From: Rhodoplanes sp. Z2-YC6860
GTDB taxonomy: Bacteria; Pseudomonadota; Alphaproteobacteria; Rhizobiales; Xanthobacteraceae
Assembly: GCF_001579845.1 (NCBI RefSeq)
Contig: NZ_CP007440.1
Location: 1,430,001 to 1,494,000 of the forward strand
Direction of reading: 5' to 3'
DNA length: 64,000 nucleotides
The notes beneath the pieces are model-generated. The model was not told the DNA's origin and made no database searches. It was given only the letters and a program-made list of their open reading frames with translations. Position numbers and translations under genes: made by a program. Below, piece by piece: positions 17,088 to 41,073 of the stretch. The number at the start of each line of letters is the position of its first letter. Within the stretch, counting starts at the first letter, position 1.

Positions 17088-17150
17088 ATGAGTCTACAGG
17101 CGGGAGTACCACCGACTCTCAGTCACCGAGGCCCGAAGCTGTTTCGGTGA
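17088..17150 (-). promoter_or_regulatory. Leader element, copy A
   Basis: Hairpin arms TCACCGA / TCGGTGA followed by GGTGACTGAGAG and, 9 bases on, CTCCCGCC ending 19 nt before the start codon. CTCCC can pair with the GGGAG of the ribosome site. Confidence 0.65.
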
Positions 17151-17502
17151 TAAAGAAGGCTAAGCAGCGTGGAATCTGGAATCTGTACCGTTTTGATCAC
17201 TTTCAAAGAGGCCCACTGCATTATTTAGAACAGGAAGTCCGGCGCGCAAACCAGCGCGGCCTACCGCTTGCGATCTTGTTCGGTTTGGGCCACCTCGATT
17301 GGCGGCCTTTTTCACTGCACCAGTGTCCGGTTTCGGGATGAGCGGTGGTCTGCTTTTATTTTCAAATGTGAGCCATTTGGAACAGTCCCCACCTCGATTT
17401 CGCGGGAGAGTCGCGAATTGCATATCCGGTCGGTACGCCGGGTAGCGCCCGCTGGGGCACTACTTCGGCGGGCGCATTTTCCAGACCCAGGGAGCGCGCC
17501 CG
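17151..17502. other. Regulatory/repeat interval without genes
   Basis: Holds the conserved upstream region of the 90-aa gene (matching 39,230-39,298 in inverse orientation), a degenerate pair of the 22-bp motif (17,205-17,245) and a terminator-like GGCC..GGCC hairpin with a T tract at 17,288-17,312. No gene recognised. Confidence 0.5.
17193..17206 (-). promoter_or_regulatory. Near-consensus FNR/FixK-type box
   Basis: On the minus strand TTGAAAGTGATCAA, one mismatch from TTGAT-N4-ATCAA, about 114 bp upstream of the 90-aa gene. It overlaps the degenerate 22-bp motif. Confidence 0.4.
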
Positions 17503-17688
17503 TTGCCCCAACCAAATTGCCGCTACTGCGGGAAGCCTTTGATGGTCACTTCCGCCACCGCATTCATCTGTCCGGCGTGCGGGATGGTGGAGTTTGGCGA
17601 TCCTCACGCAACCCAACAACTTCATCTGCAGTTCCAGCCTCAACAGCAACAGCAACAGCAACAGCAGTCGCAAGGCAAGAAGGAGTAG
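17503..17688 (+). CDS. Zinc-ribbon protein with poly-Gln tail
   Basis: 61 residues from a TTG 8 bases after GGGAG. Two knuckles (CRYCGKPL ... FICPACGMVEF, residues ~6-30) form a small zinc ribbon; the tail is a run of nine glutamines encoded by CAACAG repeats, ending QSQGKKE. Related genes are at 17,917, 35,332 (broken), 39,815 (broken) and 53,050. Possibly an RNA- or protein-binding adaptor, but this is inference. Directly followed by the shared terminator. Confidence 0.65.
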   Translation: MPQPNCRYCGKPLMVTSATAFICPACGMVEFGDPHATQQLHLQFQPQQQQQQQQQSQGKKE

Positions 17689-17713
17689 GCCGCCTCAGGT
17701 GGCGGCCTCTTTC
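17688..17713 (+). terminator. Shared small-gene terminator, copy 1
   Basis: Stem GGCCGCC / GGCGGCC with loop TCAGGT then CTCTTTC, touching the stop codon. Near-identical copies are at 22,919 and 42,381. Confidence 0.75.
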
Positions 17714-17866
17714 ATTGCAGCAAGACAACGGCTGGCATCCCCGTTTGGCTTCCGTGGGGCACGCGCGTGCCATCATCTGGAACCCAGAAAAGTGGTCTGT
17801 TTTGGCCATGTCAGGGGTTGGCCGCCGGAACGAACATCAACCGCCGCAGCTTACACAGCATCGGCT

Positions 17867-17905
17867 ATCACGCTGACTGAGAGACGCTACAGCGCTCCCG
17901 AACAG
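17867..17905 (+). promoter_or_regulatory. Leader element, variant D
   Basis: GCTGACTGAGAGAC followed by GCGCTCCCG, ending about 15 nt before the zinc-ribbon start at 17,917. It lacks the upstream hairpin arms. Confidence 0.5.
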
Positions 17906-17916
17906 CAAGGCGCGTG

Positions 17917-18075
17917 ATGGCAGATCCCCCAACGCGTTCCAAAGGATGGGCGCAGAAAAAGCACACTTGCGGTGTCGTCGCATCCCTCACAGCCTTGGTC
18001 TGCCCTGCATGCGGGATGGTTGAGTTTGTGGAGGCCCCAGCACAGCCGCAGCAGCTCCAGCAACAACAGCCGTAG
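17917..18075 (+). CDS. Degenerate zinc-ribbon protein with Gln tail
   Basis: 52 residues. The C-terminal knuckle CPACGMVEF is kept and is the same as in the 17,503 gene, but the N-terminal knuckle has one Cys only (KKHTCGVV), so a full zinc site may be lost. Tail QPQQLQQQQP. A degenerate terminator (GGCCGC...GGCAGC) follows. Either a diverging family member or a decaying one. Confidence 0.55.
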   Translation: MADPPTRSKGWAQKKHTCGVVASLTALVCPACGMVEFVEAPAQPQQLQQQQP

Positions 18076-18343
18076 CCAAGGAAAGACGAGCCTGAGGAAT
18101 AGGCCGCTTCCGCTGGCAGCTCCGGTGACGTTGCTTCATTGTCGCGGCCGGTGCTTCATAACGATGGCACCATCGACGTGGCGGTCGCGCATGAGTAGGG
18201 CGCTTCCACTTGGGCGCATAGGTTTGCGATGCGTCACCTTTCCGTGAACCCACCCTGAGCAATTCTATACAGACTCCCGTTCGGCACAGATTCTAGCTTG
18301 GACGCGCCGAGGCAAGTTTCCGAGAGCGCGGCGGAGCGTGTTC

Positions 18344-19414
18344 ATGCAGACAACCAATTTCAGGGATCAGTTTGCCGACGTGGCGGATGCTTGTGCGCTG
18401 GCTCAAAGCATCGTCGATACTGTCCGCGAGCCTGTTCTGGTGCTCGACAAAGGACTTCGCGTGATTGCAGCGAGCCGGTCCTTTTATTCGAGTTTCCAGG
18501 TTCGGCCGGAAGATACCCAAGGCAAGCTGCTCTACGATTTGGGCGATGGTCAGTGGGACATTCCAAAACTTCGCGTGTTGCTGGAGCAGATCATACCCGA
18601 ACACGGCGTGATGGAGGGTTACGAGGTCGAGCACGAGTTTCCCGGTGTTGGACATCGCACGATGTATTTGAATGCGCGTCAGGTAGTCTACAAAGCAGGC
18701 GCCGAAAGTACAATTCTTCTTGGCATTGAGGATGTCACTGAACGGCGAATCTTGGAGCGCGAAAAGGACGAGTTGTTGCGACAAAGGGAGGTGATGCTGG
18801 AGGAACTGCAGCACCGGATTGCAAACAGCCTGCAGATCATCGCCGGGATCATTTTGATGAAAGCGACGAGGGTCGAATCGGAAGAGACGCGCGCTCATCT
18901 ACACGATGCGCACAAGCGCGTCATGTCGATCGCGGCCGTGCAGACCCAGCTTCACGCGTCCGGAATCTCCGGACCCATCGATATGCTGCCTTATCTCTCG
19001 AAGCTGTGCGATATCCTCGCGACCTCGATGATTGGCGACAATCGGCAAATCACGATCAAAGTCGTCGGCGAAGGGGGCGTTGCTACTCCCCGTGAGGCTG
19101 AGAGCATCGGCTTGATTGCGACCGAGCTTGTCATGAACGCCATCAAGCACGCGTTCCCAGCCGAGCAAAGCAACGGCCGGATCGTCATCGCGCATGACGT
19201 CGATGGGACGAACTGGAAACTTTCGGTCGCCGACAACGGGATTGGCCGGCCCGACGGCACATTTGCCCAGTCAAAAACCGGACTCGGCACCGGTATCGTG
19301 AAGGCGCTCGCGCAACAGCTTGGTGCCAAGGTTGAGACTTTAGCCGACCCGGAGGGCACGACAGTCTCGATCACTCACGCCACGTTCTGGACCAAGGAAA
19401 ATCGAGCCGCATAG
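18344..19414 (+). CDS. PAS-containing HWE/HisKA_2-type histidine kinase
   Basis: 356 residues; ATG 8 bases after GGAG. A PAS domain covers residues ~20-135 (EPVLVLDKGLRVIAASRSFY ... GIEDVTERRILE), then a HisKA_2 dimerisation helix with the phospho-acceptor His in LEELQHRIANSLQII, and an HATPase domain with N box NAIKHAF, G1 DNGIGRPDG and G2 GLGTGIVKAL. No membrane segment, so a cytoplasmic sensor. No response regulator is adjacent. Alphaproteobacterial kinases of this class often feed the PhyR/EcfG general stress response (inference). Its last ~220 bp is duplicated at 21,858. Confidence 0.88.
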   Translation: MQTTNFRDQFADVADACALAQSIVDTVREPVLVLDKGLRVIAASRSFYSSFQVRPEDTQGKLLYDLGDGQWDIPKLRVLLEQIIPEHGVMEGYEVEHEFPGVGHRTMYLNARQVVYKAGAESTILLGIEDVTERRILEREKDELLRQREVMLEELQHRIANSLQIIAGIILMKATRVESEETRAHLHDAHKRVMSIAAVQTQLHASGISGPIDMLPYLSKLCDILATSMIGDNRQITIKVVGEGGVATPREAESIGLIATELVMNAIKHAFPAEQSNGRIVIAHDVDGTNWKLSVADNGIGRPDGTFAQSKTGLGTGIVKALAQQLGAKVETLADPEGTTVSITHATFWTKENRAA

Positions 19415-19582
19415 ACAGGTGCGGAACGAGACGCCATGTCTGCGCTCCCGCAACAGCGGGCGCGTCATGCGGATCGCCAGAGCGAAGCTCTCAGGCAAGC
19501 TCAGGCGGCGTGTCATACAAGCGCGCCGCCGGTCGTGACGCCACCGTGATGCAAGCTGCTTCAGATCTTGCGGCGATGGTTA

Positions 19583-19678
19583 TTAGGCCAGCCTCGTTGC
19601 GACGATCAAAAGCACGAGCAACGCCGGCACCACCAGCGGGGGCACCAGCCACGGACTGATCCGATTGTAGAAACTCAT
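19583..19678 (-). CDS. 31-residue membrane peptide, copy 1
   Basis: MSFYNRISPWLVPPLVVP then LLVLLI, one membrane helix. A well-spaced GGAGG lies upstream. A close homologue (32 aa) at 41,551 differs at a few positions while keeping the reading frame and ISPWLVPPLVVP exactly, which argues for real translation. Both copies are divergent from a Crp/Fnr paralogue. Function unknown; possibly a small regulator of a membrane complex. Confidence 0.7.
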   Translation of the reverse strand: MSFYNRISPWLVPPLVVPALLVLLIVATRLA

Positions 19679-19728
19679 GGATTCCTCCTTTGACGTGGGC
19701 AAAGAGCCCGACCAGGGGGCCAGAGCAG

Positions 19729-19782
19729 GCGGGAGCGCAGAACTGTCTCTCAGTCACCGAGTCCCGGAAGCTGTATCGGTGA
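19729..19782 (-). promoter_or_regulatory. Leader element, copy C
   Basis: TCACCGATACAGCTTCC, then GGTGACTGAGAGAC and GCGCTCCCGC on the minus strand, upstream of the 31-residue peptide gene. Spacing to the start (50 nt) is longer than in other copies. Confidence 0.6.
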
Positions 19783-19893
19783 TGTTGCGAGGTTGCGCCT
19801 TGGGCAAGGCGCTGGCTGATCCAAACAGACCGTTGTTCTTCTTCGTGATCGCGGCAATTCACACTCGCGGCGAAGGCTTGCGACTTTGACCTG

Positions 19894-19970
19894 TCCGATC
19901 GCTTCCAACAATCCTGTGTCCGCTACCGGACGTTGGCCAGTCCGATCGCTTCTAACAATCCTGTGTCCGC
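19894..19970 (+). repeat. Two 30-bp direct repeats upstream of Crp/Fnr copy 1
   Basis: TCCGATCGCTTC(C/T)AACAATC continuing CTGTGTCCGC occurs at 19,894-19,923 and 19,941-19,970, one mismatch, 47-bp period. The second half (AACAATCCTGTG) is conserved upstream of the paralogue (41,125-41,140). Candidate regulator sites. Confidence 0.7.
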
Positions 19971-20017
19971 GACATTATGTTAACAGACCACCCACAGCGG
20001 CCCTGTGGCCAGGGGTT

Positions 20018-20046
20018 GGTGGCGGAGAGACAATCGAGCTCCCGCC
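20018..20046 (+). promoter_or_regulatory. Leader element, copy G
   Basis: GGTGGCGGAGAGAC then GCTCCCGCC, ending exactly 20 nt before the Crp/Fnr start codon. Confidence 0.6.
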
Positions 20047-20066
20047 TGGTCTGACAGGAAGCTGGG

Positions 20067-20795
20067 ATGTCTCGTCCACCTCGAAAAAAACCCATCAAGC
20101 CCAGCATAAACCACAAGCCGGCAAGCGGCGCGTTGTTTGATCCTGCGGTATTCTTGGCAACGGCGGCTCCAGGCCGCGAGATTTCCACGCATTCAAAGAA
20201 AGACATCATCTTCGCTCAGGGCGGCGACGCGGATGCGGTTTTCTATATCAAGAAAGGCAAGGTCAAGGTCGCCGTTGTATCGAAGGATGGAAAAGAGGCC
20301 GTGGTAGCGCTCTTGGGACCAGACGAATTTGTAGGGGAAGGTTGCCTGATCGGTCAGCCGAAGCGGTTGGCGACAGCGTCAGCGATGACGGAATGCGAGA
20401 CGATGCGAGTGGCCAAAACCGAAATCCAGCGACTCCTCCAGCAGGAGCCCGCGTTTTCGCAAATGTTCGTCGTCCACGTTCTGGCGAGGAATGCCCGGGT
20501 TGAAGAAGATCTGGTCGATCAGCTTTTCAACTCAACCGAGAAACGTCTTGCGCGGTTGTTGTTGCTGTTGGCCAATTTTGGAAAAGCAGGCCGCACGGAG
20601 CCAATCCTCGCAAAGATCAGCCAGGAAACGCTGGCCGAGATGATCGGCACGACGCGGTCACGCGTGAGTCACTTCATGAACAAGTTTCGCAAAATGGGCT
20701 TCATCAATTACAACGGACATCTCGAGGTTCACAATTCGTTGGTGGGCGTGCTTCTGGCCGATCAGCCCCGCGCCGTGAGCGCGTCCAAGGAGTGA
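20067..20795 (+). CDS. Crp/Fnr-family regulator, copy 1
   Basis: 242 residues. Cyclic-nucleotide-binding-like beta roll at ~25-145 (DIIFAQGGDADAVFYIKKGKVKVAVVSKDGKEAVVALLGPDEFVGEGCLIGQ) and a Crp-type winged helix with ISQETLAEMIGTTRSRVSHFMNKFR. Only two cysteines are present and the N-terminal Fnr cluster ligands are absent, so it is not an iron-sulfur Fnr. The recognition helix lacks E-x-x-S-R, so it is unlikely to read the canonical TTGAT box. A paralogue with ~85-90% identity lies inverted at 40,290. Confidence 0.88.
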   Translation: MSRPPRKKPIKPSINHKPASGALFDPAVFLATAAPGREISTHSKKDIIFAQGGDADAVFYIKKGKVKVAVVSKDGKEAVVALLGPDEFVGEGCLIGQPKRLATASAMTECETMRVAKTEIQRLLQQEPAFSQMFVVHVLARNARVEEDLVDQLFNSTEKRLARLLLLLANFGKAGRTEPILAKISQETLAEMIGTTRSRVSHFMNKFRKMGFINYNGHLEVHNSLVGVLLADQPRAVSASKE

Positions 20796-20828
20796 CAACG
20801 CGGCGCCCGATCTTGCGAACCGTCATTG

Positions 20829-21020
20829 TTACTTCATTCGCCTGCCCTTGAAATAACCGGCATTCGTCGTGTTCTGCTTGATATTGGCGGTCTCGCCCTT
20901 TTCCGCGGCGTTGCCGTGATGCTCGTGCTGAACAAGTTTCTCGTCTGCTTGCCTGGTCTTGCCCGGCGTGCCCTTGTTGCTACGGTTCGCTGGAGGGATC
21001 GGCGGCATGTGGTTCGGCAT
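20829..21020 (-). CDS. Small conserved-type protein, 63 aa
   Basis: MPNHMPPIPPANRSNKG ... ANIKQNTTNAGYFKGRRMK. I recognise the ends of this sequence as a recurrent Bradyrhizobium-type small protein; function is unknown. Hydrophilic and probably disordered. A longer frame exists upstream but the MPNHMPP start is the family's usual N-terminus. Confidence 0.7.
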   Translation of the reverse strand: MPNHMPPIPPANRSNKGTPGKTRQADEKLVQHEHHGNAAEKGETANIKQNTTNAGYFKGRRMK

Positions 21021-21158
21021 GATCGATGTCCTTTTCAATTGACGAATGACGCAGCGGGCGACCCATTGCGGGGACAAGCGGCGCAAAAAATTCGTCGGTT
21101 GAAGCACAATACAAAAGCAATGAGGGGTCGACGATTTGCCGACCCCTCGACTGCGATA

Positions 21159-21353
21159 TCACTTCTGCTGTTGGCTCTTGCCGTGCGCTTCATCGGAATG
21201 CTGATGGGCGACTTTCGAATGCTGCAGAGCCTCCGAGGATTGTTGCTTGCCCTTTGAATGGTCGTTGCTGCCGTGCTGTTGGGCCGCGGCCCGATGAGAC
21301 TTCGCACCGGTCTCGTGATGCTCGGCAGCCTTGATGTGCGCGTCCTTCGGCAT
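21159..21353 (-). CDS. His-rich small hydrophilic protein
   Basis: 64 residues with His in a repeated helical pattern (KAAEHHETGAKSHRAAAQQHG ... EALQHSKVAHQHSDEAHGKSQQQK). Similar small proteins occur widely in rhizobia next to stress genes; they may bind metal or act as desiccation/stress protectants (inference). The ribosome site is weak. Confidence 0.7.
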   Translation of the reverse strand: MPKDAHIKAAEHHETGAKSHRAAAQQHGSNDHSKGKQQSSEALQHSKVAHQHSDEAHGKSQQQK

Positions 21354-21536
21354 TTTGGTTCTTTCTGTTGGCCGGGAAATCCGGTGGTGCATATCCGTAG
21401 ACAACGGCGGCCGAAACAGGTGCCGATGATGGCGGAAGAAAGAAGCAGACACGAGGGAACCATTGCTGGCTCCCGTGCATCATCGCGCCTTCGCTATTTC
21501 ACCTTGGCAAACGCCGCGTCAGCATCGCTCAAACGC

Positions 21537-21839
21537 CTATTGCCCGGTGACTTTGATGTCGGCGGCTTTGACGAATGTCCGCCCACCGCGCGATTTGATC
21601 TTGACGCACATCCTCATCAGGATGCAGCAGACATGCCAGCCCGACGCGGCGAGCCCGCCGAGCATGGTTTCGCGCGCCGCGTCCTCGTCGAGATGCATCG
21701 GCTGCGGATCGAACTCGGCCGCGAACGCGATCATCTCGTCGTGCGGCAGACGGCGCGGCCCGTGCTCGAAGGTCCGGCCGGGCGTGAAATCTTCGAAATG
21801 GAGCTGAGGCACTGGAGGCTGAACTTTCGGCGAGTCTGA
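21537..21839 (-). pseudogene. MaoC-like dehydratase fragment
   Basis: The frame encodes LHFEDFTPGRTFEHGPRRLP, EFDPQPMHLDEDAARETMLGG and LAASGWHVCCILMRM, the N-terminal hot-dog part of MaoC-like proteins, with the D-x-x-P-x-H catalytic region. The 5' end is fused to the histidine-kinase fragment and the 3' end stops after ~100 codons instead of ~150. A remnant. Confidence 0.7.
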
Positions 21840-21857
21840 GCTTGGCAGGCGAAGTGC

Positions 21858-22100
21858 GTATGACGTCGATGGGACAAACTGGAAGCTTTCGGTCGCCGAC
21901 AATGGGGTTGGCAGGCCAGACGGCACATTTGCCCAGTCAAAAACCGGGCTCGGTACCGGTATCGTGAGGGCGCTCGCGCAACAGCTTGGTGCCAAGGTTG
22001 AGACTTTGGCCGACCCGGTGGGCACGACAGTCTCGATCACTCACGCCACGTTCTGGACCAAGGTAAATCGAGCCGCATAGACAGGTGCGGAACGAGACGC
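21858..22100 (+). pseudogene. Duplicated 3' end of the histidine kinase
   Basis: About 240 bp matching 19,194-19,436 with some 15 substitutions, covering the G1/G2 boxes (DNGVGRPDG, GLGTGIVRAL) through the stop codon and 20 bp beyond. It lacks the PAS and His regions and any start. The same flank continues into the 130-bp dispersed repeat, so duplication ends can be mapped. Confidence 0.85.
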
Positions 22101-22102
22101 TG

Positions 22103-22230
22103 ATGGCACATCGCGTCATTTCGTTGCGACGCGACGACATGTCCGGTCTTGGAGTAACAGCCGACATCGGGCGGCGCTGTGCACTGCAAGGGCCGGTCGA
22201 AAGTAACCCAACTCGGACATGGACATCTGC
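22103..22230 (+). repeat. 130-bp dispersed repeat, copy 2
   Basis: Partner of 16,305-16,432 (ATGGCACATCGCGTCATTTC and downstream). It starts directly after the kinase-fragment duplication. Confidence 0.75.
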
Positions 22231-22244
22231 ACTCTTTGATCACT

Positions 22245-22390
22245 GGTGGCCGGTTTTGAAAAGCACAGTGGCTTATTCCAAGAGGCACTTTCTCGCTCGA
22301 CGGCTGGAACGATGTGCAGCGGCGAGGGCTTTTCCGTTCGGTTCCACAGTGGTCTGTTTTGAACTGAGCAGTGAACTACTTTGGATCAGC
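22245..22390 (+). repeat. Two pairs of the 22-bp motif
   Basis: Pair 1: GGTGGCCGGTTTTGAA at 22,245 and AGTGGCTTATTCCAAG at 22,267. Pair 2: AGTGGTCTGTTTTGAA at 22,347 and AGTGAACTACTTTGGA at 22,369. Units start 22 bp apart in both pairs. Similar pairs lie at 35,221 and 39,210. Confidence 0.65.
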
Positions 22391-22464
22391 GGGCGGCGGC
22401 GCAGTAAAAACCATACGCCCAGCACGATCACCAAGGCTCCGAATGTGAGAGGGACGTAATGCAT
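22273..22464 (-). CDS. Doubtful small membrane protein
   Basis: MHYVPLTFGALVIVLGVWFLLRRR is a good membrane helix, but the remaining ~40 residues run through the 22-bp motif and there is no ribosome site. Either a truncated gene whose end was replaced by repeat DNA, or chance. Confidence 0.3.
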   Translation of the reverse strand: MHYVPLTFGALVIVLGVWFLLRRRPLIQSSSLLSSKQTTVEPNGKALAAAHRSSRRARKCLLE

Positions 22465-22912: not shown

Positions 22913-22918
22913 TATTGA

Positions 22919-23071: not shown

Positions 23072-23461
23072 CTAGGGTTTCGCAAATTTTGATCGCTGGA
23101 ATGCCCAGGTCGGGGAAATTCGTTCCGTCAGGCTTTGCGCCGTTAGTTGCGTTCGCCCATCTAGCGCGGCCTCGACGATATCGGGCGCGAGCAAATTGAG
23201 GCGAAGAATTCTGGTCACATAAGACTCGTTGATGCGCTCGGCTTTCGCCAATTCGCCGACCGTAGCGTATGTCCCATCATCCAGCTTTTGCTTCCATCTG
23301 TAGGCGCGCGCCAACGCCTTCGCGATCGAATCGTCGAAACGTGTCTTCGGTGATTGATGCGGCACTTGGCCAATTATGGTCTTGCGGCCACCGCGGACCG
23401 TGAACTTCAGCGGTACATGCACCGTCACGGTTGAAGTCAGCCGGCGTTGATCGGCTTTCAT
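23072..23461 (-). CDS. HTH protein of the recombinase locus
   Basis: 129 residues, start overlapping the end of the recombinase by 4 bp (translational coupling). A central helix-turn-helix (TVGELAKAERINESYVTRILRLNLLAPDIVEAAL) resembles ParB/KorB-like DNA-binding helices. In Bradyrhizobium-type genomes this small gene regularly follows a DUF2924-recombinase pair and probably regulates or assists it. This member appears intact even though its partners are broken. Confidence 0.7.
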   Translation of the reverse strand: MKADQRRLTSTVTVHVPLKFTVRGGRKTIIGQVPHQSPKTRFDDSIAKALARAYRWKQKLDDGTYATVGELAKAERINESYVTRILRLNLLAPDIVEAALDGRTQLTAQSLTERISPTWAFQRSKFAKP

Positions 23462-24789
23462 GCTGCGCGGTCCTGCGGCTCGGAGTTGGCCCGAAGATCA
23501 TGCATAAGGCTACCGAGTCCATTCGTTCGCAGCGTGATGCCTGCGCCCGTCGTGCTGACCTCGACGCGTGCCACGAGCAATTGAACGATCCGCGCCTGTT
23601 CGGCCGGAAAGAGTTCGGCCCAGATTTCCGAGAAGCGGCGCAGATGTTCGCTGACTTGCCGCTCCGTCAACCCTTTGACGGTCTGCTTGGCTTCCCGCCA
23701 GGTTGCTACGACGATCTCCGGTGATTGCATCAGAAGCTTGATCTGGTACACCACAGCGGCCTCGATCTCGGTGGCCGGTATGCGCCGGATTGGGCTGCGG
23801 TCGGGCACGCCTGAGCGGAGCGCGCTCGTCGCAATGTAGTAGCGGTACAGCCGGCCTCCTTTCCGGGTGTGAGTCGGCGTCATGGGGACACCGTTCGGTC
23901 CGAAGATCAGGCCCTTCAGCAGTGCCGGACTCTGTACCCGGTTTCTCTGGGCGCGCTTCCTGGGGCTTTCTTTCAGAATCCCGTGGACCTTGTCCCAGAG
24001 CGCTCGCTCGATGATGGCTTGGTGCTCTCCCGGATAGGCCGTGCCCTTGTGCACCGCCTCGCCGATATAGGTGCGGTTGTTGAGCATTTTGTAGAGCGCG
24101 CCCTTGTCGATCAGCTTGCCGTAGTGGTTGCGGGCGTTCTCCTGCGCAAGCTGCCGGGCCAACTTGGTGTCGGAACCAAGCTTCACGAATCGTTTGAATA
24201 TCGACCGGACTAGGTCGGCCTCGGTCTCGTTGATGATGAGCTTGCGGTCCTTGACCAAATATCCGAGTGGCACGAAACCGCCCATCCACATGCCTCTCCG
24301 TCGTGACGCAGCGATTTTGTCACGGATGCGCTCGCCGATCACTTCGCGTTCGAACTGGGCGAAGGACAGGAGCACGTTGAGTGTGAGCCGGCCCATGCTG
24401 GTGGTGGTGTTGAACGACTGTGTCACTGACACGAAGGTCACGCTCTTGCGGTCGACCACCTCGAGCAGCTTCGCGAAATCCATCAGCGAGCGGCTCAACC
24501 GGTCAATTTTGTAGACCACGACGATGTCGATGGCGCCGGCTTCAATGTCGGCGAGGAGCCGTTTGAGCGCGGGCCGGTCCAAATTACCGCCGGAGTAGCC
24601 GCCATCGTCATAGCGGTCGCCGAGCTACATCCACCCTTCGGCCCGCTGGCTCGCGATGTAGGATTCGCAGGCCTCGCGCTGGGCGTCGAGGCTATTGAAT
24701 TCCTGCTCCAGACCTTCTTCGGTTGATTTGCGGGTGTAGACCGCGCAGCGGAGCTTCTTTCGAATGGCGAGGGTAGGTTTCGCCGCCAT
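23458..24789 (-). pseudogene. Serine recombinase with internal stop
   Basis: The 5' part ([42 protein letters not shown]) carries the resolvase N-terminus with the Ser nucleophile region, then one TAG (24,625-24,627) interrupts, and the same frame continues LGDRYDDGGYSGGNLDRPALKRLLADIEAG ... VVYKIDRLSRSL and a recombinase domain plus zinc-ribbon-like C-terminus. A single CAG-to-TAG change would explain it. Otherwise full length (~440 codons). It starts at an ATG overlapping the DUF2924 stop. Confidence 0.85.
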
Positions 24790-28710: not shown

Positions 28711-29166
28711 TTAGGCTGCTTTCTTCTGCGCGATCGTCGTCGTGCTCGTGCCGCCGTTGATGGCAATGCGCCGCGGCTTCATGGCCTCGGGCACTTCCCT
28801 CACAAGGTCGATCTTGAGCAGACCTTCCTCGAAGGAGGCGCTCTTCACCTGCACATAGTCGGCGAGGTTGAACACACGTCGGAACGGGCGTGCGGAGATG
28901 CCTTGATAGAGATACTCGGTGTCCGCCTTCTGAGCCTTCTGACCTTCCACGGTGAGAACATTCAGCTCCGCCGTGATGGCCACTTCGTCCGGGCTGAATC
29001 CGGCCAGCGCCAGCGAGATGCGGTAGTGGTCTTCGCCCGTGCGTTCGATGTTGTAGGGCGGGTAGGCGTCGTTGGCCTGGAAATGAGCCGATTGGTCCAT
29101 CAGGTCGAAGAGGCGGTCGAAGCCAACGGTCGAGCGCCAGAGTGGGGTGGGGTCGAAAGTCCTCAT
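28711..29166 (-). CDS. IbpA-like Hsp20 small heat-shock protein
   Basis: 151 residues starting MRTFDPTPLWRSTVGFDRLFDLMD, the classic rhizobial IbpA/HspA opening, with an alpha-crystallin domain (YPPYNIERTGEDHYRISLALAGFSPDEVAITAELNVLTVEGQK ... FRRVFNLADYVQVKSASFEEGLLKIDLVREVP) and IAI near the end. The second of two close ATGs was chosen because it sits 8 bases from GGAGG. Preceded by a ROSE-type thermometer. Confidence 0.93.
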   Translation of the reverse strand: MRTFDPTPLWRSTVGFDRLFDLMDQSAHFQANDAYPPYNIERTGEDHYRISLALAGFSPDEVAITAELNVLTVEGQKAQKADTEYLYQGISARPFRRVFNLADYVQVKSASFEEGLLKIDLVREVPEAMKPRRIAINGGTSTTTIAQKKAA

Positions 29167-29270
29167 TGCCATATCCTCCAGTTGAGCAACATGGATCACA
29201 AGGGAACGCCAGACACCTGTCCGGCGCCCGGTTGCCGGGCCCCGACCGGGCGCACGGCGCCGCACCGAAG
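29167..29270 (-). promoter_or_regulatory. ROSE-type RNA thermometer
   Basis: The leader ends TTGCTCAACTGGAGGAT, the conserved ROSE arrangement in which TTGCT pairs with AGGA of the ribosome site, followed upstream by GC-rich hairpins (GCAC-TTCG-GTGC; a CCCGG/CCGGG stem). ROSE elements melt on heating and permit translation of small heat-shock genes in Bradyrhizobium and relatives. Confidence 0.75.
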
Positions 29271-35637: not shown

Positions 35638-36042
35638 GTGAGCGCGGCCGGCGAATATTATCGAGAACTCAGCAGGCATTGTATGGCTGTCGCAGAGAAC
35701 GACCCGGTGCAAAAACTTTCGCAACTGGCTGCCGCGTCAGTTTGTCTGGCTCTCGCCAAAAAATTTGATAGCCAGGATCAAACTGAGCGCGACCAGCTTG
35801 CCAGATCCGGCCAGCCAGATGTCGGAGTTCTAGCGTCCGGCACGGCTGCGGACCAAAGCACGAAGCGCCTGGTTGAGCGACGCCGGACGAATTCCGATGC
35901 CATCAGGAGCCCAGCCAGCGTCATTCTTGGAATTTCCTCGATGATCCTCGTTGCGTTCGTATCTGCATTTTACAATCATCCGGCAATGCGGACTCCCCAA
36001 ATTCTGACTTCATTGCAACAGTACGTCATTGCCACCTTCTAG
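35638..36042 (+). CDS. Unknown protein with C-terminal membrane helix
   Basis: 134 residues from GTG. N-terminal helical domain (AAGEYYRELSRHCMAVAENDPVQKLSQLAAASVCLALAKKF) recalls the small ECxxLA-type helical proteins; a linker leads to a C-terminal membrane segment (ASVILGISSMILVAFVSAF). Tail-anchored topology likely. Function unknown. Confidence 0.55.
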   Translation: MSAAGEYYRELSRHCMAVAENDPVQKLSQLAAASVCLALAKKFDSQDQTERDQLARSGQPDVGVLASGTAADQSTKRLVERRRTNSDAIRSPASVILGISSMILVAFVSAFYNHPAMRTPQILTSLQQYVIATF

Positions 36043-36052
36043 CGTGAAACCG

Positions 36053-36295
36053 TCAGTGGACGATGGAAGCGATGACGTAATAGCCGCTACCAAGAACCAC
36101 GACGCCGCCAGCGACCAACAGGATCGGCAGGAGAAAGACGGGGATCCTCTTCTTCGTCGTGGCCCTCAACTGCGGCTTATAGACCTGAAGGAGCGAGCGT
36201 GCGTTCTCAACCGGTGCAGTGCCCGCCCTGGTGCCAGACCACTCAACCGACGCGCGGCGGCGGCGAGGACTTGCTGGCCGGCGCTGGTTGCTCAT
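36053..36295 (-). CDS. Small single-pass membrane protein, 80 aa
   Basis: Basic N-terminus (MSNQRRPASPRRRRAS) and a C-terminal membrane helix (FLLPILLVAGGVVVLGSGYYVIASIV). A GTG six bases upstream is possible. It follows the 30-residue peptide gene by a few bases, so probably one transcript. Confidence 0.5.
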   Translation of the reverse strand: MSNQRRPASPRRRRASVEWSGTRAGTAPVENARSLLQVYKPQLRATTKKRIPVFLLPILLVAGGVVVLGSGYYVIASIVH

Positions 36296-36305
36296 GCGCA
36301 CGTTG

Positions 36306-36398
36306 TTACAGCCTTGCGCGCCAGGGCCAACCTATGGCGGCCGCGAAAGCGACCGCACCGACGGTCGCTAGAACAAGCGCGATTTCGACCTCAGTCAT
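36306..36398 (-). CDS. 30-residue membrane peptide
   Basis: MTEVEIALVLATVGAVAFAA then AIGWPWRARL: one membrane helix. GGAG lies 8 bases before the ATG, giving good support for translation. Likely operonic with the following 80-aa membrane protein. Confidence 0.65.
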   Translation of the reverse strand: MTEVEIALVLATVGAVAFAAAIGWPWRARL

Positions 36399-36641
36399 CT
36401 GGCGCTCCAGAAATGCAGAATGCCAACGTGAATTAGCGACTTTGGTTCCGGCCGGCGTGGCAGGGGATCGCATGGCACCGCCAGCCGATGGCTTGCCGAC
36501 GGATGGACGCTCCTACTCTTTGCATCACGATGACGATGAGCAATTTTGAACAGATCGTCGCTTCGTGGTCTGTTACCTGCGCTCTGGGGCAAAGGAAGCC
36601 CGCATAACCACGCGGGGGGTTCATGCACAGGGAATGTTGCG

Positions 36642-36827
36642 ATGAGTTTGGTGAAAGAGGCCCTCGGGGCCACATTGTTTGCGGCGTGGATCGTCGGTCT
36701 CGTCCATCAATTGGGTTCGTGGTCGATGACCGCTGCTTATGTCGCGATTTCTCTCGTGATGGTCACTGTAATTTTCAGCGACCATCTCGTGGTCAAATTC
36801 CCACCTCGGCGAAACCGCCGAAAATAG
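36642..36827 (+). CDS. Small two-helix membrane protein, 61 aa
   Basis: ATG 9 bases after AGGGA. Two hydrophobic segments (LGATLFAAWIVGLVHQLG and AAYVAISLVMVTVIFS) and a basic tail (KFPPRRNRRK). Function unknown. Confidence 0.6.
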   Translation: MSLVKEALGATLFAAWIVGLVHQLGSWSMTAAYVAISLVMVTVIFSDHLVVKFPPRRNRRK

Positions 36828-37007
36828 ATGCGGCTGGAGAAAATCCGGTCGCGGCCGTTTGCCGCGGGCGTCGACAGGCCCGTACGCCGGACCGGCGCAG
36901 AATGCAATTCAGTGCCTGCGCTGCGGTAACGCATTTGATCTGGCGAGGGGGTAGACAAGCACATTGCCTCCTACATCGAGGAGGTGCGACCTGTCGCGAT
37001 AGGCCGC

Positions 37008-37116
37008 GACGGATGCCCGTTATGTCGCGCAGCTCGAAAAGCGAGAATGCATTTCTCAAAACTCAGATTGCGATCAAGGACACTCAGGACACGGTGTTGC
37101 TGGAACGGGACCGCGA
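37008..37116 (+). pseudogene. Fragment of a coiled-coil/HTH-type phage or island protein
   Basis: Two frames give ARYVAQLEK and, after a slip of one base, ENAFLKTQIAIKDTQDTVLLERDRET, a pattern (Y-x2-L-E-x-EN-x-FL-x2-Q-I-x-KD-x-QI) I associate with a common rhizobial mobile-element protein. Only this helix remains. The rest of the gap 36,828-37,135 shows nothing. Confidence 0.4.
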
Positions 37117-37135
37117 AACGGTCGTCTGCCCGTGT

Positions 37136-37315
37136 TCACTTGGGTGCTTTTGGTTGCTTCTGCTTGGCTGCTCGATCCAGGGGGACGGCAACGTCATCTT
37201 CGTGACGTTCAGCATTTCCGATTGTTTTGCCAGACATGTTCCCTGGATTGAAATGAAACTTGCCCGGTGGCATTTCGCCCGGTCGTGTCTTTTTGGGGTC
37301 TTTGTTGTCGCCCAT
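37136..37315 (-). CDS. Small conserved-type hydrophilic protein, 59 aa
   Basis: MGDNKDPKKTRPGEMPPGKFHFNPGNMSGKTIGNAERHEDD: a sequence type I recognise as recurrent in Bradyrhizobium, function unknown. AAGGAG lies 6 bases before the ATG. Confidence 0.75.
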   Translation of the reverse strand: MGDNKDPKKTRPGEMPPGKFHFNPGNMSGKTIGNAERHEDDVAVPLDRAAKQKQPKAPK

Positions 37316-37484
37316 TTCAACTCCTTGAATGTCTATCGACAACGGCAGCCAGATGGGTTCGTTCCTTAGTGGCCGGTTGAATAACGAAGGGGCACAAGCG
37401 CTTGGTTCGAGGAGCGATTGCGCGTCCATTATGTTGTTTTTACTAACCACCAAAGGCGAATAGTAGATTCGTGGTCTTGCCATT

Positions 37485-37712
37485 GTGGCCGTTGTCTCGC
37501 TGGCGTGTGCGGCTCCGGCCACTGCGGAAGAAGTCGGTGTTGGCGTTGGGCCAAACGGTGTGTCCGTTGGTGCTGGTCCGGACCGCGTTGTTCGGGAGCG
37601 TGAGGTCGTTCGCGAGCGTGAACCGCGCCGCGACAAGGAAGTCATCATCAAGAAGGATCGCGATCCTGATGTGACGGTTGAGAAGAAGACCATCACCAAG
37701 GAACGCGACTAA
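37485..37712 (+). CDS. Small secreted basic/acidic repeat protein
   Basis: VVSLACAAPATAEEVGVGVGPNGVSVGAGPDRV then charged repeats (VVREREVVREREPRRDKEVIIKKDRD). The GTG start gives only a truncated signal peptide; an in-frame ATT at 37,467 (IRGLAIVAVVSLACAAPATA) would give a complete one, so an ancestral ATG may have mutated and the gene may be weakly or not expressed. Periplasmic type seen in rhizobia. Confidence 0.6.
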   Translation: MAVVSLACAAPATAEEVGVGVGPNGVSVGAGPDRVVREREVVREREPRRDKEVIIKKDRDPDVTVEKKTITKERD

Positions 37713-37727
37713 GTTCGACTCTGGAGA

Positions 37728-37759
37728 AAGCCCCGGCCAGAAAGCCGTGGCTTTTTCTT
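37728..37759 (+). terminator. Intrinsic terminator
   Basis: AAAGCC-CGGC / GCCG-GGCTTT stem with one mismatch, then TTTCTTT. Confidence 0.7.
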
Positions 37760-38045
37760 TGACTTCAGTTGCGCACCCCTATCCAATTTCAACACTGACC
37801 GCCGTTGGACTCGACTAGTCGCGGCATGCCGCGGCTGGGATGCATTTCCATGACGCGAAGGCGGACGAGCCCGAACGGCGCATATTTTCACTATAACGCG
37901 TGCAAGCGACACGACGCTGCAGCGCAGGCAACAGCAACAAAGCCAGAAAGAAAGAATAGTGTCGAATAGTTCGACACCACTCGTTTCCCGAGCTTCGCAT
38001 CTTATATACAGAGCATCGCCGGCAGCGGCCCGAGGCCCAGGCGCC

Positions 38046-38072
38046 GCTGACTGAGAGCGTCGCGCTCCCGCC
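38046..38072 (+). promoter_or_regulatory. Leader element, copy E
   Basis: GCTGACTGAGAGCG then GCTCCCGCC, ending 18 nt before the ATG at 38,091. A TATATACAG about 40 bp upstream could be a -10. Confidence 0.55.
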
Positions 38073-38090
38073 TGTACGCGGAGAAGTGCT

Positions 38091-38171
38091 ATGCGCCATT
38101 CCTGTTCAGACTTTCATCCGGCATACGCGCGCTTTAATGAGCGCACCTCAAAAGGCGGAGCGCGTCGATGA
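38091..38171 (+). CDS. Candidate 26-residue leader ORF
   Basis: MRHSCSDFHPAYARFNERTSK then a basic end; GGAG upstream. Its stop overlaps the next start (ATGA), suggesting translational coupling. Not membrane-type. Confidence 0.4.
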   Translation: MRHSCSDFHPAYARFNERTSKGGARR

Positions 38172-38518
38172 CACGTGCTGGTGCGGCTCTGGCTTTGTCA
38201 GGCGCCATCTTTCTCGCCACGACTGTGTCCCTAATGGCAATGGATAACGGGATTCCAAAAATTGACGTTGAGAAGCGTTGCCGCGCTTCTCAACACACGA
38301 GCGAAAAGATCTTGGGCACCGTTCCCTCACCCAATGCCTTCGACGCGTGTTTGAGGGACGAACAGGCGGCACGCGGGGCACTGGTCCGATCATGGGCAAA
38401 TATGACTGCCGCGACGAAAGCTCTGTGTGTGCAGCCGATGGTCTTTTCAGCCAGCTATATCGAATGGCGCGAATGTGTGGAAATGGAGGGACACGTGCAA
38501 GCGCTCAAGAAAAAATGA
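38168..38518 (+). CDS. Small secreted Cys-containing protein, 116 aa
   Basis: Signal peptide MTRAGAALALSGAIFLATTVSLMA, then VEKRCRASQHTSEKI, FDACLRDEQAARGALVRSWANMTAATKALCVQ and WRECVEMEGHV: four Cys that may form two disulfides, like a common rhizobial family. Translation is probably coupled to the leader ORF. Confidence 0.7.
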   Translation: MTRAGAALALSGAIFLATTVSLMAMDNGIPKIDVEKRCRASQHTSEKILGTVPSPNAFDACLRDEQAARGALVRSWANMTAATKALCVQPMVFSASYIEWRECVEMEGHVQALKKK

Positions 38519-38779
38519 CGACTGGCAAACAATCTGATTTGATGGGCCATTGGGTCTGAAATCTCCACCACGCCCTCAAGCTGGCGTTTAAATTGATTTC
38601 TTGCGCTGCGTCCTGAGGTTCATCGGCCTCCCTCCTAAGCCCCTTTGAGCTCTTACGGAACGATCCCAACAGCGGCGAGTTGACCTTGTGATCCCAACCG
38701 CATCGCCAGCCCGGACGCGCCATCTGCCACAGCAGTTGGCATCGAAAGAGGCGTCTTGAGCGGCAACCAGGAGACTGAA

Positions 38780-39055
38780 ATGACGATTCACAATGACCCA
38801 AATTCTAACAACCCAAATCGCCGCGTCGGTCGCGACGAAACAAGTTACACCGGCTGGATAGTCGGGGGTGCTGTAGCGCTCGCCGTCGTGTTCGGAATCG
38901 CCATGATGTATAACCGCAACGGCTTGCATACCGCGTCCGCAGTCAATCCGAACGCGCCCGCAGCCACGGCATCAGCTCCGATAACGGCGCATTCAACGAA
39001 TGGCTCAGCGACACCGTCAACGCCGAATCCGTCACCTGCTCCGGCGGCTCAATAA
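38780..39055 (+). CDS. Single-pass membrane protein with Pro/Ala/Ser tail
   Basis: 91 residues; AGGAGA 6 bases before the ATG. Hydrophilic N-terminus (NDPNSNNPNRRVGRDETSY), one membrane helix (GWIVGGAVALAVVFGIAMMY) and a low-complexity Pro/Ala/Ser/Thr tail, probably periplasmic. Function unknown. Confidence 0.65.
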   Translation: MTIHNDPNSNNPNRRVGRDETSYTGWIVGGAVALAVVFGIAMMYNRNGLHTASAVNPNAPAATASAPITAHSTNGSATPSTPNPSPAPAAQ

Positions 39056-39209
39056 CGCTTCTGAAAACATGCAAGTCCCCTCTCCGGGGTCCTTAAAGGT
39101 TGAGGTCCTCTGTGGCACGCGGATAATGCCGACCAAGAAGCACCCTATCTTGACCATGTCGCTAATGGAGACACGGATGTGAGCGCGCTACTAGCCCAGT
39201 TCGACCCCG

Positions 39210-39253
39210 AGTGGCCTATTTTGATTTACGCAGTGGCCTACATTGAAAATGAG
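39210..39253 (+). repeat. 22-bp motif pair upstream of the 79-aa gene
   Basis: AGTGGCCTATTTTGAT at 39,210 and AGTGGCCTACATTGAA at 39,232, exactly 22 bp apart. Confidence 0.65.
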
Positions 39254-39298
39254 CAAAACGGCACAGATTCCAAATTCCACGCTGTCTAGCATTTGATA

Positions 39299-39369
39299 TC
39301 ACCGAAACAGCTTCGGGCCTCGGTGACTGAGAGACAGTGGTGCTCCCGCCCATAGTCATGGGAGGTGAT
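39299..39369 (+). promoter_or_regulatory. Leader element, copy B
   Basis: TCACCGA / TCGGTGA hairpin arms, GGTGACTGAGAGAC, then GCTCCCGCC ending 20 nt before the ATG. CTCCC (39,343) can pair with GGGAG (39,360) of the ribosome site, which would hide it. Confidence 0.65.
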
Positions 39370-39370
39370 T

Positions 39371-39610
39371 ATGAGTGCTCACGAACAAAACACTTACTTC
39401 GACGATCAAGCCCTAGCAGCAATGATCGTTGCATACGACCGCGCTTGCTGCTCGCTTCGACCTTTAGGGCTAACCCCGATTGTTCGGGAAATAATCGGAC
39501 AGCGCATCATCGAAGCCGCCAGACAAGGCGAGCGCGACCCGGAACTGCTTCACCAGCAAGCCTTGGCAACTCTCGGCATCGAGAAAACCGCCAACGTACT
39601 TGCGGCGTAG
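39371..39610 (+). CDS. Small unknown protein, HEQ family copy B
   Basis: 79 residues: MSAHEQNTYFDDQALAAMIVAYDRACCSLRPLGLTPIVREIIG then RIIEAARQGERDPELLHQQALATLGIEKTANVLAA. Paralogue of 16,807-17,079 in inverted orientation, with matching promoter region, leader and terminator. Helical, no known domain. Two retained copies with conserved frame indicate a real protein. Confidence 0.72.
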   Translation: MSAHEQNTYFDDQALAAMIVAYDRACCSLRPLGLTPIVREIIGQRIIEAARQGERDPELLHQQALATLGIEKTANVLAA

Positions 39611-39664
39611 GTCTCACAATCCCCCAAGACCTGACGCCATGATCCCGCGTAGCGTGATCATACG

Positions 39665-39693
39665 AGGCCCAGCTCTTCCCCGGGGCTGGGCCT
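39665..39693 (+). terminator. Terminator of the 79-aa gene
   Basis: AGGCCCAGC / GCTGGGCCT with a 10-base loop, the same hairpin as at 16,755. Confidence 0.7.
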
Positions 39694-39814
39694 TGCGCAC
39701 ATCGGAACTCGGTGCAGCCAGCGGCTGGTTTGAAAAAGTGTTCGATTTTGATCACTTTTGCTGGACCGATGGGTCAAGCGGCCCATTGTACCCGGTAGGA
39801 GTATCCCACCATCA

Positions 39815-40047
39815 ATGTCTATCGACGAGTTCGTGCCGTGCGAGCACGCGGCACACAGGCTGATTTCGTCACTGAGCTGTCTCCGCTCGGTAGTGATCCC
39901 GGCCATCGCATTTACCGTTGCGTCTCATGTAAGCGGTCCACATGGGTCGCTTGGAAGTTTGCGCCGAAGCAGCCGCCGCAAGCGAGCCAATCGGTGCAGC
40001 TACAGCAACAACAGCCGCAGCCGAAGAAAGACGAGCCGAAGGAATGG
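39815..40047 (+). pseudogene. Zinc-ribbon/Gln-tail gene with one-base deletion
   Basis: Begins MSIDEFVPCEH like the intact gene at 53,050, but one T is missing after CEH, shifting the frame; the other frame continues GTQADFVTELSPLGSDPGHRIYRCVSCKRSTWVAWKFAPKQPPQASQ ... QLQQQQPQPKKDEPKE, and the stop is changed to TGG. Disabled copy of an ~400-bp inverted repeat. Confidence 0.8.
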
Positions 40048-40096
40048 GTCGCCTCAGTTTGGCCTATGTGTGCTCATGGCTATGCTAACGTCCGCG

Positions 40097-40246
40097 ATGG
40101 CCGAAAAATCAAAACAGCTAACACCTGAGTATGCGCGACAGAAGGCGGCAGAGTGTATCCGTCTCGCTAAGCGCGCCACGCAGCCGTCACACCGCATAAT
40201 GCTCGAACACAAGGCCGAGACATGGGGGCGAACGCGAGTGAGATAA
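40097..40246 (+). CDS. Small helical protein (ECxxLA family) 3
   Basis: 49 residues: LTPEYARQKAAECIRLAKRATQPSHRIMLEHKAETWGRTRVR. Same core as 22,730 and 27,719 but ends abruptly after the Trp, so probably truncated by a frameshift. Weak ribosome site. Confidence 0.5.
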   Translation: MAEKSKQLTPEYARQKAAECIRLAKRATQPSHRIMLEHKAETWGRTRVR

Positions 40247-40289
40247 AGCGCGAGCATTAGGCCACCTCGGCGGCGCCGGCTCGCAGGGA

Positions 40290-41024
40290 TTAATGTGACT
40301 CGGCGGAGCCGCTCACGGTGCGAGGCTGATCGGCCAGAAGAACGCCCACCAAAGAACTGTGAACTTCAAGGTGTCCGTTGTAATCAATGAAACCCATTTT
40401 GCGGAACCTATTCATAAAGTGACTCACGCGTGATCGCGTCGTGCCAATCATCTCAGCGAGAGTTTCCTGACTGATCTTTGCGAGAATGGGCTCCGTTCGC
40501 CCTTCTTTGCCAAAATTTGCCAATAGCAGTAACAGCCGCGCCAACCGTTTCTCGGTCGAGTTGAAAAGTTGATCGACCAGGTCTTCCTCAATCCGGGCAT
40601 TCCTCACCAGAAGATGTGAAACGAACATTTGCGAAAATGTGGGCTCATCTTGAAGCAGCCGCTGGATCTCGGTTTTGGTCACTCGCATCGTCTCGCATTC
40701 CGTCATCGCTGACGCTGTCGCTAAACGCTTAGGCTGACCGATCAGGCAGCCTTCCCCAACAAATTGGTCTGGCCCCAAGAGTGCGACGACGGCTTCCTTT
40801 CCATCCTTCGATACAACGGCGACTTTAACCTTGCCTTTCTTGATATAGAAAACCGCATCTGCATCATCGCCCTGAGCGAAAATGACTTCGTTCTTTGAAT
40901 GATTGGAAAGGTCGCGACCAAGAGCCGCCGTTGCAAGAAACACCGCAGGATCAAACACCGCCCTGCTTGCTGCCTTGCTACTTGTGCTCGACTTTACGGA
41001 CCTTGTTTTAGGTGAACGAGCCAT
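40290..41024 (-). CDS. Crp/Fnr-family regulator, copy 2
   Basis: 244 residues. Paralogue of the 20,067 gene, differing mainly in the first 30 residues and at scattered positions; the sensor roll (EVIFAQGDDADAVFYIKKGKVKVAVVSKDGKEAVVALLGPDQFVGEGCLIG) and recognition helix TTRSRVSHFMNRFR are preserved. No Fnr-type cysteine cluster. Starts at ATG after GGGA. Leader element ends 20 nt upstream, as in copy 1. Confidence 0.88.
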   Translation of the reverse strand: MARSPKTRSVKSSTSSKAASRAVFDPAVFLATAALGRDLSNHSKNEVIFAQGDDADAVFYIKKGKVKVAVVSKDGKEAVVALLGPDQFVGEGCLIGQPKRLATASAMTECETMRVTKTEIQRLLQDEPTFSQMFVSHLLVRNARIEEDLVDQLFNSTEKRLARLLLLLANFGKEGRTEPILAKISQETLAEMIGTTRSRVSHFMNRFRKMGFIDYNGHLEVHSSLVGVLLADQPRTVSGSAESH

Positions 41025-41044
41025 CACGGCTTTCCCTTCGTTCA

Positions 41045-41073
41045 GACAGGTGCGAGATTGTCTCTCAGCCACC
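41045..41073 (-). promoter_or_regulatory. Leader element, variant H
   Basis: GGTGGCTGAGAGAC present; the CTCCCGCC box is altered to GCACCTGTC. Position relative to the start (20 nt) is unchanged. Confidence 0.5.

Follow-up and report, generated by a model that had tools for sequence, protein, structure and literature searches.

The described RNAs closest to the element reported here are the thiamine pyrophosphate (TPP, or THI-box) riboswitch, Rfam family RF00059, the H-type pseudoknot riboswitches of the SAM-II and preQ1 type, and the ROSE thermometer (RF00435). The element is a short conserved sequence, probably an RNA leader, repeated seven times in a 64,000-nucleotide (nt) stretch of Rhodoplanes sp. 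Z2-YC6860 (NZ_CP007440.1, positions 1,430,001-1,494,000; this whole stretch is hereafter the window, and coordinates below are window positions). Its parts follow one another in the order hairpin (P1), box C(U)GAGAG(AC), variable linker, GCUCCCGCC, Shine-Dalgarno sequence (SD) and start codon. We favour, with moderate confidence, the view that it is a cis-acting RNA leader controlling translation initiation.

SAM-II- and preQ1-like riboswitches share with the element a possible P1, pairing of a loop to a downstream strand and a conserved third loop near the SD; the element differs in having no Rfam match, in that its pseudoknot is unproven and in its many copies per genome on unrelated small genes. 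In both the TPP riboswitch and the element a helix is directly followed by CUGAGA, and according to PMC2258182 the UGAGA of the TPP aptamer fits the UGNRA lonepair triloop. However, the element has no visible second (pyrophosphate) arm and no RF00059 match, and no thiamine gene is found among the genes scanned. Like ROSE, it is a 5' leader at the SD, and one ROSE occurs in the same window; unlike ROSE, it has invariant unpaired blocks and another layout. Rfam places ROSE only at 29160-29257 (minus strand; 51.4 bits, above the gathering score), at the 5' end of an Hsp20 gene (open reading frame (ORF) 28711-29265, minus strand).

Repeated palindromic elements are also described in Bradyrhizobium: Br-REP1 and Br-REP2 (PMC5082802) come from 3' untranslated and intergenic regions and differ from the element in this setting and in their consensus sequences. 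The motif 'Rhizobiales-1' is listed in PMC2864571 without an Rfam number, in a table that seems to class it as not cis-regulatory; no comparison at sequence level was possible. None of the 4227 Rfam 15 families matched at the element, either in the window (scanned at gathering score) or at 21 further loci (13 scanned at E up to 5, eight at E up to 1), in agreement with the impression of a reading made earlier from the window's letters alone (the sequence-only reading) that it resembles no known class. Nor did any paper among those listed by literature searches describe it, and the element is best called not found in the literature searched, rather than unpublished. Its kind is that of a cis-regulatory leader RNA; what seems to be new is its class of sequence, how many and how varied the small genes behind it are, and how it is spread among Alphaproteobacteria.

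Copies of the leader in the window

Six places in the window match GGTGRCTGAGAGAC with at most one mismatch, against 0.04 expected, and none of 100 shuffles reached six. When up to three mismatches were allowed, the 14 matches were near chance (shuffle mean 9.24; 7 of 100 shuffles as high), so the weaker copies depend on the downstream CTCCC and on a covariance model. This model, R1, was built from twelve copies of the Rhodoplanes genome with the 5' hairpin as its sole structure. It recovered all seven places picked out by the sequence-only reading, each with E of 3.8e-8 or better; five of them belong to its training set, while the two outside it are those at 19705 (48.4 bits) and 17857 (26.4 bits). 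The copies, their parts and the genes behind them are as follows (aa, amino acids).

17069-17154, minus strand: R1 match of copy 1, 62 bits
17099-17151, minus: leader of copy 1, probable +1 at 17151
17144-17150 with 17123-17129, minus: P1 of copy 1, TCACCGA/TCGGTGA
17114-17127, minus: box of copy 1, with CTCCCGCC at 17099-17106, SD GGGAG at 17083-17087 and ATG at 17079
16807-17079, minus: gene of copy 1, HEQ-type small protein, 90 aa
17857-17924, plus: R1 match of copy 2, 26.4 bits
17860-17902, plus: leader of copy 2, weak and compact
17861-17865 with 17872-17876, plus: 5-bp hairpin of copy 2, with box from 17872 and CTCCC at 17895-17899
17914-18075, plus: next ORF after copy 2, 53 aa with CxxC, GTG start chosen by script
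19705-19786, minus: R1 match of copy 3, 48.4 bits
19728-19783, minus: leader of copy 3, probable +1 at 19783
19776-19782 with 19754-19760, minus: P1 of copy 3, with box at 19745-19758 and CTCCCGCC at 19728-19735
19684-19689, minus: SD AGGAGG of copy 3, more distant than usual
19583-19678, minus: gene of copy 3, 31-aa membrane-type protein (WLVPP family)
19984-20074, plus: R1 match of copy 4, 76.2 bits
19987-20046, plus: leader of copy 4, probable +1 at 19987, divergent to copy 3
19988-19992 with 20018-20022, plus: stem CCACC/GGTGG of copy 4, with box at 20018-20031, CTCCCGCC at 20039-20046 and SD AGGAAG at 20056-20061
20067-20795, plus: gene of copy 4, Crp/Fnr-type regulator (cNMP_binding, HTH_Crp_2), 242 aa
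38012-38100, plus: R1 match of copy 5, 67.6 bits
38015-38072, plus: leader of copy 5, with CTCCCGCC at 38065-38072 and SD GGAGAAG at 38080-38086
From 38015, plus: ATCGCC arm of the copy 5 stem, one mismatch against 38046-38050
38023-38029 with 38043-38049, plus: alternative stem of copy 5, CAGCGGC with GCCGCTG
From ATG 38091, plus: short ORF of copy 5, followed by a 116-aa ORF at 38168-38518
39295-39378, plus: R1 match of copy 6, 70 bits
39298-39350, plus: leader of copy 6, probable +1 at 39298
39299-39305 with 39320-39326, plus: P1 of copy 6, with box at 39322-39335, CTCCCGCC at 39343-39350, SD GGGAG at 39360-39364 and start ATG at 39371
39371-39610, plus: gene of copy 6, HEQ-type small protein, 79 aa, paralogue of the copy 1 gene
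41017-41106, minus: R1 match of copy 7, 69.7 bits
41045-41103, minus: leader of copy 7
41060-41073, minus: intact box of copy 7, with degenerate second block (41045-41053) and P1 and SD near 41031-41036
40290-41024, minus: gene of copy 7, Crp/Fnr-type regulator, paralogue of the copy 4 gene (scanned from an upstream ATG, 273 aa)

Five kinds of gene stand behind the seven copies (two HEQ-type, two Crp/Fnr, one 31-aa membrane-type protein, one 116-aa ORF and one short CxxC ORF), which bears out the earlier claim that one leader is reused on unrelated genes; since the HEQ pair and the Crp pair are each paralogous, gene duplication explains part of the window count. The distance from the end of CTCCCGCC to the start codon is 18-20 nt in five of the seven copies (17099, 20018, 38046, 39322 and 41045, the last counted in degenerate form), exactly the number of cases reported before; the exceptions are the copy at 19728 (49 nt) and that at 17872 (11 nt to the script-chosen GTG). 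The sequence-only reading saw a hairpin in three copies. The three TCACCGA/TCGGTGA stems are there, but the limit to three does not hold, because two more copies have clear stems with other letters, TCGGC/GCTGA (17861-17876) and CCACC/GGTGG (19988-20022). P1 of the 38046 copy has one mismatch or an alternative register, and that of the 41045 copy is degenerate.

A paralogue of the 31-aa WLVPP protein lies at 41551-41649 (plus strand), and R1 finds no leader just upstream of it. Weak HEQ-family matches in two overlapping frames at about 41278-41523 (plus strand; E 5e-4 and 8.5e-4) are probably a decayed third HEQ gene. Short cysteine-pair ORFs with glutamine-rich tails occur at 17590-17690, 18040-18080 and 39990-40040, all on the plus strand.

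Distribution in the genome and in relatives

In the whole genome there are 15 matches to the GGTGRCTGAGAGAC pattern with at most one mismatch, compared with 4 for the reversed pattern, and 13 of the 15 continue into the rest of the element; the other two (L013 and L015), without a CTCCC block downstream, were discarded by eye. At E < 1e-4 R1 finds 16 copies in the 8.19 Mb genome, seven in the window and nine outside it. Four of the 16 were not used for training (48.4, 43.1, 29.8 and 26.4 bits, the last two weak). One further match, weak at 27.6 bits and oriented divergently to the copy at 680286, surfaced only on searching fetched loci. The term 'island-wide' used by the sequence-only reading is thus too narrow, and copies are found across the family and the class. 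An integrated island is suggested in the window by a tRNA gene (11765-11838, plus strand), an IS1595-type transposase (12029-12961, plus strand) and a serine recombinase (23458-24582, minus strand).

At E of 1e-4 or below, and with its own genome counted, R1 matches 8 of 11 genomes of the genus and 100 of 198 genomes of the family, in 30 of 47 genera. A second covariance model, R2, made from 95 sequences, matches 43 of 297 genomes of the order (E <= 1e-5), 20 of 385 of the class (E <= 1e-6) and 40 of 299 of the phylum (E <= 1e-5); these draws also contain genomes of the family itself. Outside the family, relatives are spread more thinly in Alphaproteobacteria. An exact pattern scan of named genomes gave at least 120 stretches; among the 80 matches listed 72 reach 30 bits or more with R2, including records labelled Bradyrhizobium, Methylobacterium, Microvirga, Afipia, Belnapia, Roseicella, Rubellimicrobium and Phenylobacterium. 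An exception to the alphaproteobacterial pattern is a 64.5-bit match (L213) in a metagenome bin whose record bears the unverified label Armatimonadetes.

Matches in nine genomes of the phylum outside Alphaproteobacteria (23.6-28.7 bits), none with both blocks and an SD in place, were judged by eye to be due to chance, and one match inside Alphaproteobacteria (L357, 30.3 bits) looks like chance as well. With chance-like matches reaching 30.3 bits, scores near or below 30 bits are untrustworthy alone.

Genes downstream of the leader

The ORFs behind 117 nonredundant elements have a median length of 68 aa; 96 are of 100 aa or fewer, and 108 start 37-54 nt from the box (starts and frames were picked by script, and a few are probably wrong). 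BLASTP sorts 148 ORFs into 19 clusters with at least two members and 40 singletons, the clusters including zinc-ribbon-like proteins, Crp/Fnr regulators, HEQ-type proteins, DUF6894 and short membrane proteins. Pfam matched 3 of 10 ORFs above cut-off (DUF6894 and two Crp/Fnr), and NCBIfam named none of 10, seven proteins being common to the two scans; the HEQ-type protein of copy 6 matched no family of either database. In two alphaproteobacterial genomes (L352 and L354) the leader precedes a small protein starting (V/M)DLNKLYFDHQ.

Some HEQ-type genes carry the leader and others lack it. The matched ORF stretches number 33, with the same gene often recurring among them; a same-strand leader near the start accompanies 20 and is missing from 13, a ratio that means little because the loci were fetched for holding a leader. 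HEQ genes without it, such as those in loci L323 and L250, suggest that the leader is a reusable module, not part of one gene family.

Position relative to promoter and start codon

Counting from the A of AUCACC as the first base of the leader, a TAnnnT box begins between -15 and -10 in 84 of 202 nonredundant elements, most often at -12 (47/202); 26 shifted control windows gave 15 on average and 22 at most. Since this -10-like box lies just 5' of that A, the RNA probably begins with the element, and transcription probably starts at the A itself. Among 148 elements this A has 98% conservation and follows a pyrimidine in 86%. At the other end, 90 of 116 elements have a start codon accompanied by an SD-like site at a distance of 24-36 nt from the G of GCTCCCGCC; with the same ORF picker the counts were 4 of 115 for the reverse strand and 4 of 114 for positions farther downstream. 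Judged by these distances, the element looks like a complete short 5' leader with a fixed place within the transcript.

A search for word enrichment upstream of 199 elements revealed no strong shared operator. The top 9-mers derive from divergent pairs, where they are the complement of the element itself, and are present upstream in up to 7 of 199 elements; the best other 9-mers listed occur in 5 of 199. In the absence of a strong shared upstream DNA word, the common signal seems to lie within the leader. Window copies 3 and 4 (19705-20074) are an example of leaders standing back to back in a divergent pair.

The P1 hairpin

P1 is formed by UCACCGG with CCGGUGA, 7-8 bp at the 5' end of the leader. 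In 117 nonredundant elements (148 less 7 without anchors and 24 redundant) 861 of 936 cells are paired, against 801 +/- 5 when the 3' letters are shuffled. In alignment A3, which holds 95 of 108 candidates (13 with poor anchors were left out), double changes are seen in all seven P1 pairs and 96.2% of cells are paired; P1 and the putative pseudoknot described below jointly have 76 double-change cells against 21.7 in shuffled alignments, a value reached in 0 of 500 shuffles. In copies from other families the stem, compared by eye, is kept with different letters.

In a tree-aware test substitutions were moved on a tree of the 203 sequences tested, giving p values per pair, uncorrected for multiple testing. 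Five of the eight P1 pairs (1, 2, 4, 5 and 6) have p <= 0.0027 and pair 7 has p = 0.03; among 2145 column combinations pair 6 ranks first, and pairs 5, 1, 4 and 2 rank 6, 7, 13 and 15. An earlier tree test with a pooled null, in which no pair fell below E = 1 (best 1.36), was replaced by these per-pair nulls. On this comparison of sequences P1 is conserved as RNA structure with compensatory changes. Lack of covariation in homologues, which the sequence-only reading had named as telling against it, is not what was found, and an RNA-level character, one of the two options that it raised, gains from P1 covariation and from the -10-like box that places the probable start at the hairpin.

The same observations bear on the view that the element is a DNA operator, a part of the promoter or a mobile repeat. 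It adjoins the promoter, it is dispersed and a few upstream words are weakly shared; but compensatory changes in a P1 whose letters are free point to RNA, the start codon lies within a narrow range of distances and the stems differ among copies, and we consider this view highly improbable.

Conserved blocks and the putative pseudoknot

In the box, GAGAG is at least 99% conserved and U 82% conserved among 109 elements, with A at the U position in 11%; the positions of GCUCCCGCC are 91-100% conserved. These values are somewhat inflated, because the same blocks served to find and anchor the elements. Two nearly invariant blocks beside a P1 whose letters are free are what a recognition site would look like, and the genes share no obvious metabolite. 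The element could thus be the binding site of a single trans-acting regulator, an RNA-binding protein or small RNA on the box or GCUCCCGCC, with P1 merely presenting the site and no intrinsic switching. We regard this as possible but rather doubtful: no partner has been identified, though no search for one was made, and GCUCC and the SD of the same mRNA are complementary.

Within the GCUCCCGCC block, CGCC is the complement of GGCG on the 3' side of the P1 loop. In A3 82.7% of cells of this putative pseudoknot are paired, and own partners score 13.6 against 13.0 +/- 0.16 in 200 swaps. None of its five pairs is supported in the tree-aware test (p = 0.14-0.49), and the H-type pseudoknot in which the P1 loop (..AGGCG) would pair with the adjacent CGCCU therefore remains a proposal, a possible fold suggested by complementarity. 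If it forms, the element might be a metabolite riboswitch built of P1, this pseudoknot and the box as a conserved third loop forming the pocket. The loop-strand complementarity favours such a riboswitch, as does UGAGA directly 3' of a helix, a feature also of the TPP aptamer (PMC2258182). In contrast, the tree-aware result, replacement of the box U by A, the failure of any Rfam riboswitch to match and the presence on many unrelated genes in one genome, which is uncommon among metabolite riboswitches, speak against it, and we hold it to be unlikely.

An alternative hairpin between GAG of the box and CUC, proposed by RNAalifold, is somewhat more stable than with shuffled linkers (-3.16 versus -2.69 +/- 0.12; 116 elements). 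It was set aside, as CTC-box pairing exceeds 0.5 in just 8 of 149 elements.

Predicted occlusion of the Shine-Dalgarno sequence

GCUCC in the leader and GGAG in the SD are complementary. For a sample of 100 drawn from the 141 elements that have GGAG, the SD is predicted to be unpaired with a probability of 0.09, compared with 0.25 when the leader up to GCTCCCGCC is shuffled; it is lower in 89 of the 100 (Wilcoxon p = 1.4e-13). Shuffling the P1 part alone leaves it at 0.10. The pairing probability of CTC with GGAG is above 0.5 in 98 of 149 elements, and the folding energy is -12.5 with the element's own 3' part versus -11.9 +/- 0.14 with swapped ones. The default fold is thus predicted to occlude the SD by GCUCC.

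A leader that only stabilizes the 5' end or supports constitutive translation, with a protective hairpin and no switching, would fit a hairpin that is probably at the extreme 5' end, the clear SD and its narrow spacing. It would leave unexplained the invariant box, GCUCCCGCC and the SD occlusion predicted for the family, and we judge it improbable.

A thermometer, which the sequence-only reading entertained, is very unlikely. Predicted SD occlusion and the heat-shock flavour of the surroundings (ROSE and Hsp20) would suit it, but predicted SD exposure is nearly flat, 0.09 at 20 C, 0.10 at 45 C and 0.14 at 65 C, in a weak test, since the ROSE of the window also hardly opens in the same calculation. 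Moreover, melting needs no invariant unpaired blocks, and ROSE does not match the element. Other genes give the neighbourhood a stress flavour: a HisKA_2 histidine kinase (18338-19414), a YflT heat-stress domain protein (48799-49359) and a PRC-barrel protein (49430-50407), all on the plus strand.

A number of results weigh against a cis-acting leader that controls translation initiation as set out here. The longest SD helix is not longer with the element's own partner than with swapped ones (5.66 versus 5.62 +/- 0.06), and GGAG is absent in 26 of 109 elements. In six window copies the SD is predicted to be 0.25-0.49 unpaired at 37 C, which is no tighter a closure than shuffled leaders had on average in the family test. 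No SD pair has p < 0.05 in the tree-aware test, although GCTCC and GGAG hardly vary and covariation cannot test this pairing; the pair flanking the SD helix (J-1 with R5) likewise has no covariation. P1 pairs 3 (p = 0.45) and 8 (p = 0.13) are not supported, combinations of non-paired, nearly invariant columns interleave the P1 pairs at ranks 2-5 of 2145, and P1 probability exceeds 0.5 in only 59 of 149 elements in nested folding. To these are added the pseudoknot pairs without tree-aware support, a faint -35 box (TTG at 17 nt spacing in 10 of 202 elements) and weakly shared upstream 7-mers such as CTCGCTA (12/199 versus 0/201).

Model and implications

We nevertheless consider control of translation initiation in cis the likelier function. 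In this mechanism the mRNA would start with P1; single-stranded C(U)GAGAG(AC) and GCUCCCGCC would come next, ahead of the SD and the start codon. By default, GCUCC is predicted to pair with GGAG and hide the SD. A signal, which may be a small molecule, an RNA-binding protein or a small RNA, would act on the invariant parts, and GCUCC would shift from the SD to another partner, for example GAG of the box. Many small genes would then be translated together; the model leaves the signal and the direction of the response unspecified.

More tentatively, the leader may represent an undescribed class of alphaproteobacterial switch RNA that unites orphan small-protein genes of unrelated kinds, along with Crp/Fnr regulators, in a single post-transcriptional regulon, answering one signal through UGAGAG and GCUCCCGCC and perhaps having a UGAGA pocket like that of TPP. 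Should a metabolite prove to be the trigger, the leader would define a new class of riboswitch with an unusually broad range of targets. Alphaproteobacteria have many small conserved genes without known function, and the shared leader suggests that several of them are switched jointly at the post-transcriptional level. Finding what acts on one leader RNA would provide a handle on the conditions under which the small proteins are made.

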